Origin: a virus
Direction: 5' to 3' (one strand)
IMG/VR virus record: IMGVR_UViG_3300050343_000085
Location: 1-40,275 of that record
DNA: 40,275 nucleotides
This document shows positions 1,113 through 37,605 of this stretch, piece after piece (position 1 is the first letter of the stretch; each line of letters opens with the position of its first letter). Under the pieces are notes generated by a model. That model did no database searches. It was given only the letters and a program-made list of their open reading frames with translations, and was not told where the DNA came from. The translations under genes were made by a program, and so were the position numbers.

Positions 1113-1809
1113 TTTTAACGTAGAGTTGCTCCCTTGGCAGCAAGAGGTGTGGAACGATGGAACTAGATTCAAAGTCATTGCGGCGGGTCGTCGTTGTGGC
1201 AAGACGCGCTATGCTGCTTACAGACTGCTTATTGAGGCCTTACAATGCACCAAGGCAGATAGTCACGTCTTTTATGTTGCTGAGACTCAGGGGCAGGCCA
1301 GAGATGTACTATGGAGCACCCTGCTGGACATTGGGGGAGACCTCATAGCGAAGGCCCACATTAACAACCTACAGTTGACCCTCATAAACGGTGCTAAGAT
1401 AAGCCTAAAGGGCTCAGACAGGCCTGATACGATGCGCGGTGTTAGCCTTAAGTTTGTAGTGTTGGATGAGTTCGGTGGCATGAAGAGTGAGGTTTGGGAA
1501 GAGGTACTTAGACCTGCCCTCACTGACCAAAAAGGGTCTGCGGTGTTCATAGGCACCCCTCAGGGAAGAAATCACTTTTGGGAGTTATATCAGTATGGTG
1601 AAGTTGGAGATGACCCGGAGTGGAAAAGCTGGCACCTCACGTCTTACGACAATCCGTTGTTGGACCCTAGTGAGATTGAAGCAGCTAAACGCTCTCAAAG
1701 TCGTCTTTTGCTTTCCGACAGGAGTTTCTGGCGTCCTTTGAGGCCCGAGAGTCCCAGTTGTTCAAAGAAGAGTGGCTCAAGTTCGCAGAAGAGACCCCCA
1801 GTGGCCTAG
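1105..1809 (+). CDS. terL: Terminase large subunit, N-terminal ATPase part (frameshifted)
   Basis: This part carries the packaging ATPase: Walker A AAGRRCGKTR at about residues 26-35 and Walker B VVLDEFGG near 118-125. Residues up to about 197 read as terminase; the last 37 or so are out-of-frame sequence before a stop at 1809. The true continuation is in the +2-shifted frame and opens with SSFAFRQEF at about 1701. A single extra A in the AAA run at 1697-1699 would join the halves into one protein of about 422 residues. The large subunit packages DNA into the prohead and is essential, so a sequencing indel is more likely than real loss. It overlaps terS and has only a weak ribosome binding site, suggesting coupled translation. 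Confidence 0.88.
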   Translation: MSDFNVELLPWQQEVWNDGTRFKVIAAGRRCGKTRYAAYRLLIEALQCTKADSHVFYVAETQGQARDVLWSTLLDIGGDLIAKAHINNLQLTLINGAKISLKGSDRPDTMRGVSLKFVVLDEFGGMKSEVWEEVLRPALTDQKGSAVFIGTPQGRNHFWELYQYGEVGDDPEWKSWHLTSYDNPLLDPSEIEAAKRSQSRLLLSDRSFWRPLRPESPSCSKKSGSSSQKRPPVA

Positions 1810-2372
1810 AGTACTACATCACAGTAGACCCTGCTGGTTTTGAGCAGGTAGGTAACACGAAGTCTAAGAGTCGCCTAGATAACACGGCCATATGTGTCAA
1901 CGGAGTGAATCAGGCGGGCGATTGGTTCATCGAAGACATCATCTATGGGCGCTGGGACCTCGCAGAGACCGCTAGGCGCATCTTTGAGGCCGTTGCACAC
2001 TACAGACCTACTAAGGTAGGGATTGAGAAAGGAATCGCTCAGCAGGCCATTATGTCCCCTCTGAGCGACCTTATGAGGAAGAGGAACCGCTACTTTCGGG
2101 TTGAGATGCTGTCCCACGGGAACAAGAAAAAGACAGACAGGGTGGTATGGGCCCTACAGGGGCGCTTTGAGCACAAGAGAATCACCCTGAAGGTCGGTGA
2201 CTGGAACTCTAGACTGCTAGATGAGATTTTCCAGTTCCCCTCCAAATTAACACATGACGATTTGGTAGATTCGCTTGCATATCAAGACCAGATAGTGGAT
2301 GTGGCGTACGCTAGTGCCTTAGATGGCATGGATGATGACTGGACACCGATTGATGACCTCACGGGATATTAA
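1758..2372 (+). CDS. terL: Terminase large subunit, C-terminal nuclease part (frameshifted)
   Basis: Continuation of the gene above in another frame; coding sequence actually opens at about 1700, and the TTG at 1758 is only the first possible in-frame start. YITVDPAGF at residues 20-28 holds the first metal-binding Asp of the RNase H-like headful or cos nuclease. A later DDLVDSLAYQ segment near residue 174 holds the conserved C-terminal Asp pair. The nuclease cuts concatemeric DNA at initiation and termination of packaging. No ribosome binding site is visible at the TTG, which argues that this is not an independently translated gene. Confidence 0.85.
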   Translation: MFKEEWLKFAEETPSGLEYYITVDPAGFEQVGNTKSKSRLDNTAICVNGVNQAGDWFIEDIIYGRWDLAETARRIFEAVAHYRPTKVGIEKGIAQQAIMSPLSDLMRKRNRYFRVEMLSHGNKKKTDRVVWALQGRFEHKRITLKVGDWNSRLLDEIFQFPSKLTHDDLVDSLAYQDQIVDVAYASALDGMDDDWTPIDDLTGY

Positions 2373-7830: not shown

Positions 7831-8955
7831 ATGTCAGTCAAGATTATCACTAAGCACGAAACAGGGGGCACTGGTGATGAGCCCCTATCAACTGACTTGG
7901 AAAAAGGTGAGTTAGGTGTAAATACGGTTGACGGTAAGCTGTGGGTCGGAGACGGTGCCTCAAAGAAACTTCTTACGCCCAGCGGTGGCTTGGTAGATGG
8001 TCTAGCGGACGGTAATACCCTCAGGTGGGAAGATAGTGCCTCTGAGTGGCAGGCCACCAGCGCCCTTGTGGTGGATGATGCTGGCAATGTCACCGCAACA
8101 GGCGATTTAACTGCGGCTTCTTTTATTGGCGACGGTTCACAGTTGACTAACGTGCCGGGGGCCACTCAGTGGGACGATGTCACTGGCGGTATTAACTACG
8201 CTGACGGGTCGGTTGGTATTGGAACTACTAATCCGGTATGGGGGCTTAATGTAGAGGCTTCCACGCAAACAATCGCTAGGTTTCAGTCTACTAGCGGCAC
8301 CTCTGCAATTATTGAGGTTGGCCCAACGAGCGTTACTGGGACTTACCCGCGCATCCAAGGAATGCCAGACGGTAGCATCAACCTTCTGGCTAGCGGGTTC
8401 CCTGTTATAGAGTGTGAAAAAGATGAAATACGCTTTAAGACTAACAGCGGCACCGAGCGTATGCGTATCGACACCAGCGGCAACGTCAAGATAAACACTG
8501 GCAACCTAGAGCTATCTGGTGGCGGTGGCTGGTATCAAACAGGCACGACATGGACTCGCTCTCTAAACGACGTAGCAGTTTACACTGGCAACACAGCGGC
8601 CACAGCATTCGCCACACCCGGTGACTTCACTGCTGGGTACTCAGACATGCGCCTCAAGACACATCTGGGAACTATCCCTGATGCCTTGGATAAGGTGTGT
8701 TCGCTGGAAGGTTTCTACTACGAGCGGAATGATACGGCGGTAGAGCTAGGTTATACAGGCGGTGAGCGTAGGGTCGGCCTTAGCGCACAGGATGTTCAGG
8801 CTGTCCTGCCAGAAGTGGTGAAGGACGCACCCATCAACATTGACCACGGCACCGATTATTTAACGATAGATTACGAGCGAGTAGTGCCTTTGCTGGTGGA
8901 GTCTATAAAAGATTTACGCGCAGAGATTGATGAATTGAAGAGGAACCAAAAATGA
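7831..8955 (+). CDS. Tail fibre/spike with C-terminal S74 chaperone domain
   Basis: 374 residues. The N-terminus (about 1-45) has the pattern GELGVNTVDGKLWVGDG that begins many trimeric phage fibres; repetitive beta sequence (TGDLTAASFIGDGSQLTNV) follows. Residues 271-374 are an intramolecular chaperone of the peptidase S74 family: SDMRLK gives the cleavage Ser271-Asp272 and the conserved Lys276, then VGLSAQDVQAVLPEVV, and the chain ends in a coiled coil (LLVESIKDLRAEIDELK). In this family the chaperone aids trimer folding and then cuts itself off. The fibre probably binds the host surface. AAGGA lies upstream, and the gene overlaps the next by 4 bases. Confidence 0.9.
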   Translation: MSVKIITKHETGGTGDEPLSTDLEKGELGVNTVDGKLWVGDGASKKLLTPSGGLVDGLADGNTLRWEDSASEWQATSALVVDDAGNVTATGDLTAASFIGDGSQLTNVPGATQWDDVTGGINYADGSVGIGTTNPVWGLNVEASTQTIARFQSTSGTSAIIEVGPTSVTGTYPRIQGMPDGSINLLASGFPVIECEKDEIRFKTNSGTERMRIDTSGNVKINTGNLELSGGGGWYQTGTTWTRSLNDVAVYTGNTAATAFATPGDFTAGYSDMRLKTHLGTIPDALDKVCSLEGFYYERNDTAVELGYTGGERRVGLSAQDVQAVLPEVVKDAPINIDHGTDYLTIDYERVVPLLVESIKDLRAEIDELKRNQK

Positions 8956-9407
8956 CAACTGACACAGTAAGCCGAGACACTAAAACAGAGTACGTTGCCT
9001 ACCTTAGCTTTGATAGGGTGGAGTGGCAGGAGTCTTACTCGTTCACCGATGGTGCGGGTAAGCCGCTTGGTGTTCTGCATGAGAACTTCCTGGCGTACCT
9101 CCGCGCAGCCTACACAGAAAACGTAGATGAGTGCTGTGTGCAGGTAGACGGTGGATTCAACACGGGCAGCGAGATAACTGTCAGCGGCACCTACACTCTG
9201 ACAACGGCGAATGAGGAAGGCGAACCCGTTGTTTCCCAAGAGGCGTTTTCCTCCAAGACAGTGCTGGACATGACGCTGGCAGCGGAACCTGCGTACATGC
9301 CTGTCAGTGATAGCTTGCTGGAGGACACAAAGAACATTTGGATTGAGATGGAGAGCGATGGCGATAGTCATAAGCCTTGTGGCACTTCAAGCACAGCCTC
9401 GCGGTGA
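8952..9407 (+). CDS. Unknown tail-associated protein (3' end frameshifted)
   Basis: 151 residues as it stands; ATGA overlap with the fibre gene. The body is beta-rich with an acidic surface and no known motif. Reading on after 9373 in the other frame gives LAVSDLKVSVTVSDD and a stop at 9488-9490 that overlaps the next start codon as TAATG, exactly like neighbouring junctions. One more A in the AA at 9372-9373 would restore a protein of about 180 residues running 8952-9490. A base-calling indel is the simplest explanation. Its position suggests a fibre-associated or chaperone protein; function not recognised. Confidence 0.7.
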   Translation: MTTDTVSRDTKTEYVAYLSFDRVEWQESYSFTDGAGKPLGVLHENFLAYLRAAYTENVDECCVQVDGGFNTGSEITVSGTYTLTTANEEGEPVVSQEAFSSKTVLDMTLAAEPAYMPVSDSLLEDTKNIWIEMESDGDSHKPCGTSSTASR

Positions 9408-9489
9408 GTGACCTGAAAGTCAGTGTGACAGTGAGTGACGATGTTGTGCCACAGATACCGCCCTCACCTAGCGCGGCTCGTTCACGCTA

Positions 9490-10542
9490 ATGGCTGTCCC
9501 TACTTCCAACATTACGCTTGCCTCTATCCAGCAGGAGTTTGGAGGCGCTGCGGCTAATCGTGCGCTGAAGAATTACTACGGTGCGGTGGCGGGTGTGCCT
9601 ACCTCTGGCGCGATTAAGTTCAAGGATTTTGCGGGTAAGTCTGCTGACATTGTGGGTTCTCAGTTATTTGAGTCCTCTGGGACTTTTACGGTTCCTGCGG
9701 GTGTAACATCTGTTCATGTCTGCTGCGTAGGCGGCGGTGGGCGAGGTTCGCCTGTGGTAGACCAAGCTCGAAGCGGTGGTTCTGCTGGTGCTTGTGCTTA
9801 CAAGAATAATATCGCCGTTACGCCGGGGCAGCAGATAACGGTGGTGGTAACGCTTGAAGGCGATACAAATACCACCAACGGTAGTTACTTCCTGAACACC
9901 TCAACCTGCAACGCCCGTACAGGGTTTCAGACTGCTATCAGCGGCGGAGCAGCTAACGCTGGGGACGCTGCCTTCAGGGGTGGTATGGGCGGCTCTGGTG
10001 GCACGATGAAATACGTTACCACTTATTTCACCATTTGGTACGCTATGGCTGGTGGAGGTGGTGGTGCAGCCTCTATGGTGGCCAATGGCCCTCGTGGAGG
10101 TAATAGCATTAATCCCGGCACTGGCACCTCCACCCCCACACCTCAACAGGGTGGCAACGGGCTTACGGCTAGTAGGGCTGGTGGTGGTGGTGGTGCTGCG
10201 GGAAATTATTTCTACGCAAATGGTGGCTCTGGAAATAATCCTGCTTACGAACCCACACTTAATAGTTCCTACTGGGGTTTTTCTAGTCACAGGGGCGGTG
10301 GCGTGGGTGTTGACTACGCGGGGCCAACAGGTGCTGCGGGTATAGGTTCCAAGACAGCGGGTGCGCCAACGAGCAGTAGCGTCACGGCACCTACAAATGG
10401 TGGTCAGGGTTCTAACGGTGATTACGGCGCGGGTGGTGGTGCGGGGACTAATCCTGGCACTGGCAAGACAAACGTCTACAAAGGTTCAGATGGTGCGGTA
10501 AATATCAAGTGGGGAAATTCAAATACGTTCCCTTGGTTATAA
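9490..10542 (+). CDS. Glycine-rich receptor-binding adhesin (probable)
   Basis: 350 residues. Residues 1-55 look like a virion-attachment segment (LASIQQEFGG, IKFKDFAGKS). From about 60 the chain has GTFTVPAGVTSVHVCCVGGGG, typical of phage tail proteins with glycine-rich domains, and then long Gly/Ala/Ser stretches such as AGGGGGAA and RAGGGGGAAGNYFYANGGSG. T-even gp38-like adhesins use similar polyglycine runs to form receptor-binding sandwiches, so host recognition is the likely role. Starts at TAATG with the frame-corrected upstream gene. The Gly-rich part is expected to vary quickly between relatives. Confidence 0.75.
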   Translation: MAVPTSNITLASIQQEFGGAAANRALKNYYGAVAGVPTSGAIKFKDFAGKSADIVGSQLFESSGTFTVPAGVTSVHVCCVGGGGRGSPVVDQARSGGSAGACAYKNNIAVTPGQQITVVVTLEGDTNTTNGSYFLNTSTCNARTGFQTAISGGAANAGDAAFRGGMGGSGGTMKYVTTYFTIWYAMAGGGGGAASMVANGPRGGNSINPGTGTSTPTPQQGGNGLTASRAGGGGGAAGNYFYANGGSGNNPAYEPTLNSSYWGFSSHRGGGVGVDYAGPTGAAGIGSKTAGAPTSSSVTAPTNGGQGSNGDYGAGGGAGTNPGTGKTNVYKGSDGAVNIKWGNSNTFPWL

Positions 10543-10555
10543 CGGAGATAGTTAA

Positions 10556-20328: not shown

Positions 20329-22110
20329 GTGAGTAAGCGTAATGACCTACTTAAGAAGTATCATGTAGCTAAGAACGGGCCAGAGAAGGAAGCCATACAG
20401 GCGCAAATTCTTGCCCTAGACATAGCCGCCTCCAAAGACCTCCCCCTTGAGCTACTGGACGTCCCTCGGGATAAGCTCAAGGGGCTCCTCAGCGGCGACG
20501 AGAGTATCTGGTACGAGAAGCCCGAAGGAATGCCTGTCGAATTGTGGGCAGCCTCTCAGGTGGCGGGTGACCTCCTTCTGGACCCCCTGAATGTGGTGGG
20601 TGGTTCGATGGCAAAGGGTGGCAAGGCTGTTAAGGGTGCTATCTCTTCGCTAGGCAACTACATCCCTAACTGGTACGGTCCAGGAAAACCTATCAACCCA
20701 GATGGCATGTTGTCCGCACAAGGGCAGGCTGGGCTACAGAAAGCGACAGGGCTAGGCGGTTGGTTAGTGGACAACGTACGCTCTGTTGGTGAGCATGTCT
20801 TTAGCCCACAGTCACGAGGCCTCTTTGAAGAGTACGGAACTAACATACCTTCACAGCGACGTATGACAGAGTACGCAGACCTCGAAGACCAACGTAAAGC
20901 ATTTAACGCAGAGAAGAAATCAGAAAGGGCTGCCGTAAAGGAGCAGCTGGATGCTGGTGAGCTGTCTAAAGAGGCCCACAAGGAACAGCTTAAGGAAATC
21001 GACGCAAAGAAATTCAAAGAGACTCGCGCAGACGCTAAGATTACTGGGGAGTTCCAGTACCAAGGACATATCGGCAAGCAGTCAGGCCACGAAGGTACTA
21101 AAGGAATGACCCCTGAGGCCGCAGAGATACAGCGCCGTAGCTACATGCAGGAGTACACCCCTGTGTCACAAGAGAACATGGAGGACGCCCTCAAGTCCTT
21201 CCCCACTGAGGTGAATGGTAGGGAGGTGTACGTCTCCGACAAAGAGGCTGAAATCTTTGCGGGGTACGGGCAGAGCCTAAAGAATGTCGTGGGTCGTCCA
21301 CTTAATGAAGGTGACAGCTTCGTGGTTAAGAACCCACGTTCATTGGTCACAGGGGCTCACCACCAAGACGTTGTACAGACCAACCCTGCTAACGCAGCCC
21401 TCGGGGAGGCTTGGGAGAAGTTTGCTGACAAAGACGGTAACGTAAATATAGAGCAGTTGTACGGGTGGCTTAAGCAGAACAAAGATAAGTACAACGAAAA
21501 GCTGGACCCCATGTTGCCTGTGGGTAAAAAGAAGAATCAGTGGGACTTGTTCAGTGGTGATATTGAGAGGGTACGGAAGAACGGCCTGTGGCTGACAGGC
21601 GGTCGAGTGGGCTCCGCTGTGACTGAGGGTGGTGTCTCTTGGCTAATGAAGATTGAGCCTGACGGTACTATGAAGGTGATGATGCGGGACCTGCATGACT
21701 TCGCAGAGAAAGTTCCTGGTGTGGGTAAAATAGCTGCTGTCAACTTACCGAATCAGGTGGTGGCTGTGTCCCCTGTAATGGTGAACAACATCAAGTCTAT
21801 TAAGAAGGGCATCACAACGACAGCCAAGGACGCTGAGGGCAATGTGATTAAGGAGCGTACAGGTGCCTCTCTCAAGTCTGGTGAGAAGCGCCTCCAGCAG
21901 CAGAAAGTAACTCATAGTGGGCCTGATTACCAGCACCCAGCTGCGCCCGGCGGGGAGCTTGCGGGCGAGACCTACTCTGACCTCGCTCGTGGCCACGCCG
22001 CACGTAAGGCCTCGCCTGAGGCACAGCGACGAGCACTGCGCCAGATGTCAGGTGAAGGTCTGCTGGCAGAAAGGCTTTATAGTAACACTAGAGCAGAAGA
22101 CACACCATAA
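20329..22110 (+). CDS. Large internal virion protein
   Basis: 593 residues from GTG at 20329, with GAGGA about 7 bases upstream. The N-terminal 80 residues contain ESIWYEKPEGMPVELWAASQ and a DLLLDPLNVVGG turn. A long charged helix (about 185-245, many K/E/A) probably forms a coiled coil. The last 100 residues are basic and flexible. Last of the large virion genes. In podoviruses the final internal protein of this cluster often carries a transglycosylase or protease, but I see no such motif here. Confidence 0.7.
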   Translation: MSKRNDLLKKYHVAKNGPEKEAIQAQILALDIAASKDLPLELLDVPRDKLKGLLSGDESIWYEKPEGMPVELWAASQVAGDLLLDPLNVVGGSMAKGGKAVKGAISSLGNYIPNWYGPGKPINPDGMLSAQGQAGLQKATGLGGWLVDNVRSVGEHVFSPQSRGLFEEYGTNIPSQRRMTEYADLEDQRKAFNAEKKSERAAVKEQLDAGELSKEAHKEQLKEIDAKKFKETRADAKITGEFQYQGHIGKQSGHEGTKGMTPEAAEIQRRSYMQEYTPVSQENMEDALKSFPTEVNGREVYVSDKEAEIFAGYGQSLKNVVGRPLNEGDSFVVKNPRSLVTGAHHQDVVQTNPANAALGEAWEKFADKDGNVNIEQLYGWLKQNKDKYNEKLDPMLPVGKKKNQWDLFSGDIERVRKNGLWLTGGRVGSAVTEGGVSWLMKIEPDGTMKVMMRDLHDFAEKVPGVGKIAAVNLPNQVVAVSPVMVNNIKSIKKGITTTAKDAEGNVIKERTGASLKSGEKRLQQQKVTHSGPDYQHPAAPGGELAGETYSDLARGHAARKASPEAQRRALRQMSGEGLLAERLYSNTRAEDTP

Positions 22111-22141
22111 ATACATACACAACCTTTATGAGGACGTAACA

Positions 22142-22333
22142 ATGATGACCAAAACAACCTATGCCTTAGCACTCGCGTGTGTTGTGGGTGTGACAGGGGC
22201 GTGTAGTGCCATAAGGACCATCGAAGAATGTGAGTTCTCTTGTACGGACTGTAAAGAAGTGAAGTTCAGGTGCCCAACTGATTCTAAGAGTATTGATATG
22301 GGGGTGCCTGACATTGCTATACCGAAGCCTTAG
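22142..22333 (+). CDS. Small putative lipoprotein, Cys-rich
   Basis: 63-64 residues (two adjacent ATGs, GAGGAC upstream). A signal peptide, TYALALACVVGVTGAC, ends in a TGAC site resembling a lipobox. The mature part is Cys-rich (ECEFSCTDCKEVKFRC), suggesting disulfides or metal binding in the periplasm. Its 3' end overlaps the next putative lipoprotein gene by about 20 bases. Two overlapping small lipoproteins after the virion genes recall spanin gene pairs, but no spanin-like inner-membrane coiled coil is evident in this one. Confidence 0.65.
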   Translation: MMTKTTYALALACVVGVTGACSAIRTIEECEFSCTDCKEVKFRCPTDSKSIDMGVPDIAIPKP

Positions 22334-22562
22334 TCTTATAGCCTTAGCACTGCTGGGCGGCTGCTCTAACCTATACTACCCAGAGCCTAAAGGCATCGTT
22401 GTGATTGAAGTGGTCGCAGATATAGCGGCTAAGTGTGGCAACGCTACAGCCTGTGCCAAGCTAGGTGACCCATGCACCGTATGGCTGTCTGAAAGGCCCA
22501 CGGACAACGAGATACTACATGAGGTGTCTCACTGCTGGGGACGGAGAGATGCCCCACAATGA
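22314..22562 (+). CDS. Putative lipoprotein with HExxH motif
   Basis: About 82 residues from TTG at 22314, preceded at 7 bases by GGGGGTG; the frame is open back to a TTG at 22293. The signal sequence YRSLSLIALALLGGC ends in a good lipobox (LLGGC), so the mature protein probably starts at Cys and is tethered to a membrane. Near the C-terminus LHEVSHCWGRRD contains HEVSH, the HExxH signature of zinc metallopeptidases, with CWG just after. Similar small lipoproteins occur late in other podovirus genomes. Proteolytic activity is inference; the protein is short for a peptidase. The start codon is uncertain. Confidence 0.65.
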   Translation: MLYRSLSLIALALLGGCSNLYYPEPKGIVVIEVVADIAAKCGNATACAKLGDPCTVWLSERPTDNEILHEVSHCWGRRDAPQ

Positions 22563-22723
22563 CAATTGAAGCAGACATGGCAAAAGAAATCGTAGAGCTA
22601 CAGCAGCGCATACGTGTGCTAGATAAGATAATCGTGACATTGATTGACAATGCCCCTGTAGAGCACATATCCGATGAGAAGTATAGAGTAGGTTTTAACC
22701 AACGAAAGGGAGAGCAAGGATGA
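22559..22723 (+). CDS. Small coiled-coil protein
   Basis: 54 residues. The ATG lies 4 bases inside the previous gene (ATGA overlap) and the stop overlaps the next ATG. The heptad-like EIVELQQRIRVLDKIIVTLI segment suggests a short coiled coil; the C-terminus is basic. No signal peptide. Function unknown; it sits within the small exported-protein cluster. Confidence 0.6.
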   Translation: MTIEADMAKEIVELQQRIRVLDKIIVTLIDNAPVEHISDEKYRVGFNQRKGEQG

Positions 22724-22968
22724 AATATTTAATGATAGGACTACTGATGTTGCCGACAGTGGCTTTGGCCCAGTGGGGCGAGTACCAGCAGGTATGGGTG
22801 CCAGCAGGCAAGAAGGTAATGATAGTGGATGAGCGTGTAGAGATTTCAAATGTTGTTGTAGTTCGTAATATTAAGGCCAGAGCAGCGACAGCGGAACCTC
22901 AAGAAGAGGTTGAATGTACACCCGCTGACGAACTCAAGCTAGGGCCGGGCACTGTTGTGTGTGACTAG
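22720..22968 (+). CDS. Small exported protein
   Basis: 82 residues with a clear signal peptide: MKYLMIGLLMLPTVALA followed by QWGEY, cleavable after ALA. The mature part has a beta-type middle (VMIVDERVEISNVVVVRNI) and two Cys (VECTP, VVCD). ATGA overlap with the previous gene; GGGAG upstream. Last + strand gene; its stop codon TAG (22966-22968) overlaps the stop of the convergent - strand gene. A role in the envelope at lysis is possible but not shown. Confidence 0.75.
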   Translation: MKYLMIGLLMLPTVALAQWGEYQQVWVPAGKKVMIVDERVEISNVVVVRNIKARAATAEPQEEVECTPADELKLGPGTVVCD

Positions 22969-23123
22969 GTGTCAGGAGGGGCTAGTTCCCTCCTCCCTGC
23001 CTCTACACCTAAACTATATGTGGCGATTACGACCACGAGTGCAATGGCCCCCTGAAAATACGTAAAGGTTAGGGTGGTTAGTACCAGTAGGTAGATACTA
23101 AGCCACATAAATGTCTCCCTCAT
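22965..23123 (-). CDS. Small membrane protein, possible holin
   Basis: 52 residues from ATG at 23123, chosen for the strong purine-rich site (GGGGAGGGGGA) about 7-14 bases upstream; the frame is open further upstream without such a site. Residues 6-41 (MWLSIYLLVLTTLTFTYFQG then AIALVVVIATYSLGV) are hydrophobic, enough for two short membrane passes, and the tail is charged (EAGRRELAPPDT). Size and layout suit a small class II-type holin, but many phage membrane peptides look alike and it lies at the end of the replication block. Overlaps the MazG gene by 4 bases. Confidence 0.65.
   Translation of the reverse strand: MRETFMWLSIYLLVLTTLTFTYFQGAIALVVVIATYSLGVEAGRRELAPPDT
22974..22994. terminator. 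Hairpin at the convergence point
   Basis: AGGAGGG (22974-22980), loop GCTAGTT, CCCTCCT (22988-22994): a perfect 7-bp stem between the convergent gene blocks, just past the + strand stop and inside the 3' end of the - strand gene. No T tract follows on either strand, so it would be a weak or factor-assisted terminator. Confidence 0.4.
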
Positions 23124-31937: not shown

Positions 31938-31965
31938 ATTATACAGGAGTATCGGCCTGTGTCAA
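31938..31965 (-). promoter_or_regulatory. P3, sigma70-like promoter for the replication operon
   Basis: On the - strand TTGACA (31965-31960), 16 bases, TATAAT (31943-31938), then ATAGGTATAGGG. The AGGTATA just downstream of the -10 is shared with P1 (and as GGGTATA with P2). It sits directly after the stop of the gene at 31970 and about 70 bases before the SSB start. Confidence 0.8.
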
Positions 31966-33496: not shown

Positions 33497-34033
33497 CTAC
33501 TTCTCCTCCAGTTTCTTTGTTATCCACCGCGCAATTATCCCGTGGCGGCTGTCAGTTGGGTGCAGTCCATCGCTGGTGTCGGCAGTCAGGTAAGGTGCAG
33601 ACAGGACAGTCACGTTGTTATAGTCCTTTGCTACCGCCTTTGACCACTGACGGGCATCTCGGGTGCGCTGCTCATGTTCAGGTGACAGAGTCACGACGAC
33701 AGGCAAAACCATCCAGACCTTGCACCCCCTGCCTTCCAGGAATTGCATGTGGTCACGCAGAGATTGTTGGTAAGTGCCCTGTGGTACGCCGTAACCCGCG
33801 TCATTGGTTCCCAGCCAGTAAATGACTTCCCGCTTGTGGCACGATAGCTGCCTCGGTATGTCTGACTGTGTGAGTAGGCTCCCAGCTTGTGCCACGTTGT
33901 TGATGTGGAAGTCTACCTTGCTGGACCATGCCCCTGCGTCGGACGACAGGGAATCACCGAACAGGTAATAACTGGTGTCGGCACAGGCTGTCGTTGCTGC
34001 TAGGCTAAGTGCTGCTGCTGCTAAGTATTTCAT
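33497..34033 (-). CDS. Secreted SGNH/GDSL-family hydrolase
   Basis: 178 residues with a signal peptide (MKYLAAAALSLAATTACA, cleavage likely before DTSYY). Block I is YLFGDSLS (Ser28 nucleophile), block II AQAGS (Gly51), block III YWLGTNDAG (Asn77) and block V DGLHPTDSRH (Asp155, His158), so the full catalytic set is present. SGNH enzymes hydrolyse esters such as lipids, or acetyl groups on sugars or peptidoglycan. In this phage it would act in the periplasm or outside. It is encoded with early-type genes below P4, not with the virion genes, and could modify the host envelope or contribute to lysis. The substrate cannot be told. Confidence 0.85.
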   Translation of the reverse strand: MKYLAAAALSLAATTACADTSYYLFGDSLSSDAGAWSSKVDFHINNVAQAGSLLTQSDIPRQLSCHKREVIYWLGTNDAGYGVPQGTYQQSLRDHMQFLEGRGCKVWMVLPVVVTLSPEHEQRTRDARQWSKAVAKDYNNVTVLSAPYLTADTSDGLHPTDSRHGIIARWITKKLEEK

Positions 34034-34413
34034 CAGTCCATGCGTCCTATAATGCTGTCGTCACCGTCACTCACCGCCACAATAGCGTACCTGTAGACCA
34101 GAAAATCTATCTCATCAGTCAACTTAAACTGTAGCATAGGCTCCATGTCGCTATCTTCCTCGTGCTTAGAGATGTACTTCAGGCCCTCTACGTGCCCCCA
34201 TGAGGCACCAGAGAAGTCCCCCATGCCGTAGCACTCGGTTAGGGTGTCCCATGCCTCCTGAAGGCTCTCAGGCTGTGTCAAGGCTGCCTCTAGTGCAAAG
34301 TAAGGCAACAACCCTGCGGCATCCAGCAACTTAGTCGGTTTGATACCAGTGTAGGCGTCGTTGGGGTCAATCACGACCTCTAGACCCCCGTTCATTGTCT
34401 TTGTAATGCTCAT
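34033..34413 (-). CDS. Unknown protein (126 aa)
   Basis: 126 residues, acidic (many D/E near LTDEIDFLVYRYAIVAVSDG), sharing one base with the following hydrolase start and overlapping the previous gene by 4 bases. Helical middle (ALTQPESLQEAWDTLTECYG). No family recognised. Position suggests expression from P4 along with the nuclease-like protein. Confidence 0.65.
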   Translation of the reverse strand: MSITKTMNGGLEVVIDPNDAYTGIKPTKLLDAAGLLPYFALEAALTQPESLQEAWDTLTECYGMGDFSGASWGHVEGLKYISKHEEDSDMEPMLQFKLTDEIDFLVYRYAIVAVSDGDDSIIGRMD

Positions 34414-36612: not shown

Positions 36613-37605
36613 CTAAACCTCCATTTCAATTTGAGTTTGGATTATAGGGGCTTCTAACTGTGCTGTCAACCCCCATTGTGACATTATTTCGTCCCTATTC
36701 GCCTCGTATACGGCCTGTGCGAATCCTCGCGGGGTGAGGCTACGAATGTACTTGGTACGTGCAGACTTACCGCCCAGCTTCGTATGCCCAGGAAAATCCT
36801 TCCCTAGTGGCCACATCACCTTTTGTACTGGCTCACGGAACCCGTTACCGTGCCACATACCCGTCTTTTTGTTGTATCTGTCCTGCGGTGGGATAATCTC
36901 GGGGAATTCAGGGTGAGGGCCTTCTGGACAGTAGCCAGCGTAATCACACGGGTCCCAGTACATATCGGGTTTACGCCACATCGTAGCCAGCACACTAACA
37001 GGGTTTTCTACCATATATGGGCAATAGAAATACTCGACGAGCCGCGCCATCGCTACGGCCTCATGCTGAAAATTGGGGTTAGCTGCTGCCTTCTTAGCGA
37101 AGTGTGCCGCACCACTGACAGCTAAATCTGTACAGGGTGCGAATGATACCACTAGTGAGGGGTGCTCCAATCCTGCACCTTGTAGCATGCCTAATACTCG
37201 CTCTCCGGCTGCCCAGTGTGATAAGTCTAGGTTAAACACATTGTGACCTACGCTAGGCTCCCTGTGCGCCCCGCTGTGGTCTGTATCATCGTAGTCTACT
37301 GACACCACGTTAAACCCGCCATCGTCTAGCCACGGCTGTACTGCGTAGGAGCTGCTATTGAATAAAAATAGTACTGTTGGCTTGTTCATTTTGTTTTCTC
37401 CATGACATAGGTTTCCAGCCCTACGTGGGTGCTGGCGTAGGCTGTAGCGGCCTTTCAAGTAAGCAGAGCATGCCGCCTGCACCCTGTTGTAGTCTTTCTG
37501 TGGAAGTGTGAACCATTCCCCCACGCGCATAGACTCGAATTTGTCTTTCCATGAACTAGTATTGCTGTGTCGCCCTTTGGGCGCGGGTGTTTTTTTGTAT
37601 TTCAA
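36613..37605 (-). CDS. Cytosine-C5 methylase-like protein with extra N-terminal domain
   Basis: 330 residues as drawn from TTG at 37605. Residues 73-330 resemble phage Dcm-like methylases: SAM-binding start VLFLFNSSSYAVQPWLDDGG, the SFAPCTDL segment (Pro157-Cys158, the catalytic PC) and MVENPVS (ENP in place of ENV). Residues 1-70 form a separate domain (KFESMRVGEWFTLPQKDYNR) like a small stand-alone phage protein. An internal ATG at 37389 with GGAGA upstream could give the methylase alone. The better upstream start is ATG at 37615 (overlapping the previous stop), one base off frame across a 7-A run, so an indel is suspected. Could protect DNA from restriction. Confidence 0.72.
   Translation of the reverse strand: MKYKKTPAPKGRHSNTSSWKDKFESMRVGEWFTLPQKDYNRVQAACSAYLKGRYSLRQHPRRAGNLCHGENKMNKPTVLFLFNSSSYAVQPWLDDGGFNVVSVDYDDTDHSGAHREPSVGHNVFNLDLSHWAAGERVLGMLQGAGLEHPSLVVSFAPCTDLAVSGAAHFAKKAAANPNFQHEAVAMARLVEYFYCPYMVENPVSVLATMWRKPDMYWDPCDYAGYCPEGPHPEFPEIIPPQDRYNKKTGMWHGNGFREPVQKVMWPLGKDFPGHTKLGGKSARTKYIRSLTPRGFAQAVYEANRDEIMSQWGLTAQLEAPIIQTQIEMEV

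Follow-up and report, generated by a model that had tools for sequence, protein, structure and literature searches.

A predicted exported SGNH/GDSL hydrolase from the early region of a marine phage is shared with unrelated phages together with a tail module

Phage SGNH esterases acting on O-acetylated surface polysaccharide occur in virion fibers. The tail fiber gp63.1 of phage G7C has reportedly been proven to deacetylate surface polysaccharide. The SGNH tail fibers of Klebsiella prophages likewise have esterase activity (PMC13123978). The protein described here belongs with these in the phage SGNH class, but they are fiber domains without a signal peptide, whereas it is a free enzyme predicted to be exported. 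Comparable stand-alone GDSL proteins, early and exported but uncharacterized, are already on record in Novosibovirus (Proteus phages PM75, PM16, and 309) and Kakivirus (Providencia phage PS3), where the "lipase/esterase" of 187 to 210 aa is the first early gene annotated and, in 309, the first one read rightward; its describers (PMC9229222) guessed that it serves adsorption or lysis. Like the hydrolase studied here, they are stand-alone early-region products of lytic phages with a hydrophobic signal or anchor leader and are not virion fibers. The initial annotation had described phage esterases as usually tail spikes without signal peptides, a generalization to which these proteins are exceptions. 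They had no BLAST-level similarity to our protein (no tblastn match), but hhalign aligned the two with 74% probability (E 2.8e-5, 23% identity), and this similarity, confined to the profile level, suggests that early exported SGNH proteins recur across phage lineages. An exported SGNH candidate was also noted in Salmonella phage vB_Sty_BCPSty_003 (L065:2641-3474), where a "hypothetical protein" of 277 aa combines a signal peptide-like N terminus with SGNH-like GDS, GTND, and DTIH motifs.

The window, i.e., the whole stretch of 40,275 nucleotides analyzed here, comes from a marine phage. Its DNA polymerase is related (41-51%) and its portal distantly related to those of marine podoviruses (HMO-2011, CRP, and HTVC groups), but a set of 50,697 phage records gave no relative at the DNA level. 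These records contained no relative of the SGNH gene, nor did 72,556 plasmids. The features of the locus are listed in Table 1.

Table 1. Coordinates of the SGNH locus and the tail module in the window
Feature	Position	Strand	Basis or remark
SGNH/GDSL hydrolase CDS, stand-alone, predicted exported	33497..34033	-	178 aa, ATG to stop; PF13472, Foldseek, dN/dS
Signal peptide (predicted; residues 1-18, cleaved after ACA18)	33980..34033	-	Sequence; pN ~0.5 vs mature dN 0.06-0.08
Block I GDS26-28, nucleophile Ser28	33950..33958	-	Invariant, 10 rows
Block II, oxyanion Gly51	33881..33883	-	Invariant, 10 rows
Cys65, possible disulfide partner of Cys104	33839..33841	-	Conservation
Block III GTND75-78, oxyanion Asn77	33800..33811	-	Invariant, 10 rows
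Cys104, possible disulfide partner of Cys65	33722..33724	-	Conservation; neighboring predicted strands
Block V DGLH, catalytic Asp155 and His158	33560..33571	-	Invariant, 10 rows
Upstream 126-aa gene	34033..34413	-	Stop overlaps SGNH start (ATGA)
Promoter P4, TTGACA-17-TATAAT	36641..36669	-	12/12 sigma-70 match; upstream of SGNH operon
Tail fiber with S74 intramolecular chaperone, first module gene	7831..8955	+	PF13884; 53-70% identical in G005/G004
Second tail-module gene	8952..9407	+	96-98% identical over 141 aa in G004/G005
Glycine-rich probable adhesin, third module gene	9490..10542	+	Gly_rich_2; 79-83% identical in G003-G005

The 178-aa protein matched Lipase_GDSL_2 (PF13472) with 36.9 bits (E 6.6e-9), above the Pfam cut-off of 32.9 bits. 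In an alignment of 10 rows, reaching relatives of 48-50% identity and one cellular homologue at 31%, blocks I, II, III, and V were identical throughout, and the reading frame of the initial annotation was recovered at its exact coordinates, with the four blocks and the predicted signal peptide present. The mature part showed a dN of 0.06-0.08 and a dN/dS of 0.055-0.066 between the window and three phage relatives. Because this is strong purifying selection in the SGNH frame, a chance open reading frame is excluded, as it is by the Pfam match. The AlphaFold2 model was moderate (pLDDT 68, pTM 0.70). It was compared with solved structures by Foldseek; E. coli TesA was the top fold (E 5e-6, TM 0.61) and further SGNH esterases ranked below it, in agreement with a flavodoxin-like alpha/beta/alpha fold. 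PatB, a peptidoglycan O-acetylesterase, came only at rank 31 (E 6.6e-4). Membership of the product in the SGNH/GDSL superfamily is supported, and ester hydrolysis is predicted.

The N terminus (MKYLAAAALSLAATTACA, with DTS following the cleavage site) has the positive n-region, hydrophobic h-region, and A-x-A site of a Sec-type leader. The leader sequence turned over freely among the relatives (pN ~0.5), yet its hydrophobicity was kept, and an N-terminal signal or anchor was also present in the relatives of about 50% identity. The DNA common to the window and other phages stopped at 33980, exactly at the predicted boundary between leader and mature protein. C65 and C104, the sole cysteines of the mature protein, were both found in 9/9 close and 50%-identical relatives and were both missing from the 31% cellular homologue. 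They precede two adjacent predicted strands, which makes a disulfide plausible, and the conserved pair would be consistent with an oxidizing compartment. A cytoplasmic enzyme is disfavored by the maintained leader and the cysteine pair. The leader, the blocks, and the operon position support the earlier proposal of an exported SGNH hydrolase among early-region genes, as a prediction from sequence.

The minus-strand module comprises a methyltransferase-type gene and genes for a single-stranded DNA-binding protein, primase/helicase, PolA, Cas4-type exonuclease, endonuclease, and ribonucleotide reductase, and the plus strand carries the virion genes. The SGNH gene sits in the pre-replicative operon downstream of P4. 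This promoter, postulated before, was found as a complete consensus match, one of two perfect sigma-70 sites in the window where shuffles predicted 0.03; the second, at 31965, starts the replication operon. Operon position and host-type promoters point to early expression of the SGNH gene, whose translation is probably coupled to that of the 126-aa gene, given the stop/start overlap. A promoter traveling with the gene was sought in G004 and G005, with nothing above chance. The protein is not a tail-spike or fiber esterase, being stand-alone, provided with a signal peptide, and encoded outside the virion block. The first complete reading frame past P4 (36431-36547, minus strand), which belongs to the esterase's operon, encodes a 38-aa hydrophobic, possibly lipidated peptide.

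Relatives of the SGNH gene fell into four groups of viral metagenome contigs. They were 99-100% identical in the window's own lineage (L001-L003, with the final codons only in L008), 88% identical in G003/G004, where an integrase adjoins the gene, 83-84% identical in G005 and L006, and about 50% identical in the G006 group, in which the N-terminal anchor is longer. A single copy of 80% identity, with its own leader and ordinary neighbors, was located on the chromosome of the marine gammaproteobacterium HTCC2148 (Halieaceae). It is not part of a prophage, as phage genes were absent from the flanking 14 kb and a weak integrase match occurred only elsewhere. At such similarity the gene was present in 1/140 genomes of the family, which rejects it as a regular host gene. 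A search with the 31% cellular homologue gave no viral relatives. L058/G521 is collinear with the window and has both flanking genes without the SGNH gene; in G521, a complete genome with a 127-base terminal repeat, the homologue of the 126-aa gene is followed directly by another gene, leaving an empty site. An HNH endonuclease gene is inserted immediately upstream of the SGNH gene in L003, and in L006 the SGNH gene is placed ahead of the terminase. By these sequence comparisons the gene is accessory and mobile.

What is new here is that the SGNH gene and a tail module are the sole DNA shared pairwise by three unrelated phages. When the window, G005 (37.0 kb), and G004 (34.9 kb, with a terminal repeat), three otherwise unrelated backbones, were compared pairwise by blastn, 3/3 comparisons returned two shared regions only, the tail module (window 8017-10549) and the SGNH gene. 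The adhesin of the module matched Gly_rich_2 slightly under the Pfam cut-off (E 8.8e-5), and the second protein measured 151-179 aa across the phages. The window version of the latter (8952-9407, plus strand) ends prematurely by a frameshift relative to the 179-aa versions in L073, L074, and G004. Both in the window and in G005 a long distance separates the SGNH gene from the module, and they were therefore not transferred there as one block. About 0.2 kb separates them in G004, where they occupy opposite strands, and this one pairing of the three could reflect a single transfer. The fragment L006 carries the SGNH gene and a fiber region common with G005. G521 is without both the module and the SGNH gene and has other fiber genes at the same position, and G006, of the 50%-identical lineage, is without this module. 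The module was present in G523 (34.6 kb), an incomplete contig cut within the module, in which no SGNH gene was detected by profile or motif. The G005 tail fiber (L071:12251-14329, minus strand) has an S74 chaperone and a probable SGNH/GDSL domain with GGND and DYLH motifs, below the Pfam cut-off (E 3.1e-5) and matching the exported family with an hhalign probability of 33% only. G005, which also encodes the exported esterase, may thus have both SGNH types, and the fiber domain suggests an ester-decorated receptor. The sharing of gene and tail module suggests that the SGNH enzyme would alter the surface bound by the phage.

The best reading, which we hold tentatively and at slightly less than an even chance, is an exported esterase that deacylates an envelope or receptor component early and so blocks re-adsorption or superinfection. 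The small hydrolase would be exported into the periplasm by the host Sec route and take an acyl group, probably acetyl, off an envelope component that the cell produces or exposes while infected; the likeliest target is the glycan or lipid-linked structure that the receptor-binding tail module of the same phage recognizes. With that group gone early, neither superinfecting virions nor newly released progeny would be wasted on the infected cell or its debris, and the gene would travel as a mobile accessory with matching receptor-binding genes. The sequence itself shows that the catalytic residues are complete, that a signal peptide is present, that the gene is under selection and mobile, and that it co-occurs with the tail module; catalysis, substrate, timing, and the exclusion phenotype are inferences. 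Envelope modification and a block to superinfection had been raised in the initial annotation, and both gained indirect support from the co-occurrence in three unrelated phages, the joint absence in G521, and the lone HTCC2148 copy without phage neighbors, as would be expected if the gene is useful to a cell. A more specific version is doubtful, namely, that a secreted receptor-destroying enzyme is inherited across unrelated phages as a functional pair with the receptor-binding module and that the bacterium took a copy as receptor-masking protection. Against the best reading stand the number of lineages, three with one exception (G523), the absence of the module from the G006 lineage, the closeness of gene and module in G004, and the fact that a shared host could yield exchange of both genes anyway.

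Superinfection exclusion usually operates through small lipoproteins, DNA-entry blockers, or O-antigen transferases, and a search of the literature turned up no exported phage esterase credited with exclusion. The SGNH hemagglutinin-esterases of some animal viruses destroy receptors in a manner similar to that proposed, but the phage SGNH protein is a separate exported protein. If early receptor deacylation is true, phages gain a receptor-destroying enzyme, a secreted esterase paired with matching receptor-binding genes. This would explain the recurrence of early exported SGNH genes in unrelated lytic phages and predicts a surface group, an ester, needed by the tail module.

The main rival to receptor modification is a helper role in lysis, in which the exported esterase would remove peptidoglycan O-acetyl groups or phospholipid acyl chains and lysis would proceed without a canonical endolysin. 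No endolysin or holin was recognized in the window, and its large virion proteins, when searched for homologues among solved structures, yielded no endolysin either, in line with what had been noted from the sequence before; nevertheless, endolysins may hide among the largely uncharacterized virion genes. G521, without the SGNH gene, ends its late operon with genes for a three-transmembrane holin and an M15 endolysin (a peptidase), whose counterparts were not found in the window, and this difference lends some support to the earlier idea that the esterase stands in for part of lysis. In the G006 lineage, too, the SGNH gene lies near a convergent holin gene. In no phage seen, however, was it inside a lysis cassette. 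In the window, about 11 kb lie between the end of the late operon and the early-type module that contains it; in G004 it adjoins an integrase, and in L006 it precedes the terminase. An esterase by itself cannot cut peptidoglycan, and a lysis enzyme under constraint on a bacterial chromosome would be odd. We regard a lysis function as quite unlikely.

Small lipoprotein-like genes occupy the late-operon end of the window (22110-23100), the site of the holin and M15 genes in G521, and one of them (22293-22562) carries both a lipobox and an HEVSH motif. The gene right after the esterase in the 50%-identical lineage (L010:10552-10812, plus strand) encodes a DUF7220 two-helix membrane protein, and a convergent GTA-type holin lies beyond it.

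A TesA-like lipid enzyme, i.e., a periplasmic lysophospholipase/thioesterase remodeling host membrane lipids or recycling fatty acids for the phage, has a similarly low probability. E. coli TesA/TAP and bacterial periplasmic arylesterases have size, fold, export, and a single SGNH domain in common with the window protein, and TesA/TAP provided the nearest solved folds and best profile matches. Identity is about 20%, however, and membership in the TesA/TAP family (NF007819) was rejected with 22.8 bits against a cut-off of 270. Ordinary host TesA forms a different branch, and the co-occurrence with tail genes would be left unexplained. Less likely still is a cell-derived envelope esterase that aids the nutrition or fitness of the host or lysogen and is swapped among phages of one host, the tail co-occurrence reflecting that host; the single chromosomal copy in HTCC2148, the integrase-bearing G004, and the common hosts of phages with common receptors fit it, but the 1/140 frequency speaks against a regular host gene and these phages share no other accessory gene at the DNA level.

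The near-identical L001 was continuous across both window ends, and the window, though classed as linear, is therefore a near-whole, circularly permuted genome. Its terminase large subunit was split over overlapping frames (1105-1809 and 1758-2372, plus strand). L001 differed there by a short indel and its frame read on; a recent frameshift or an error in the sequence probably accounts for the split.
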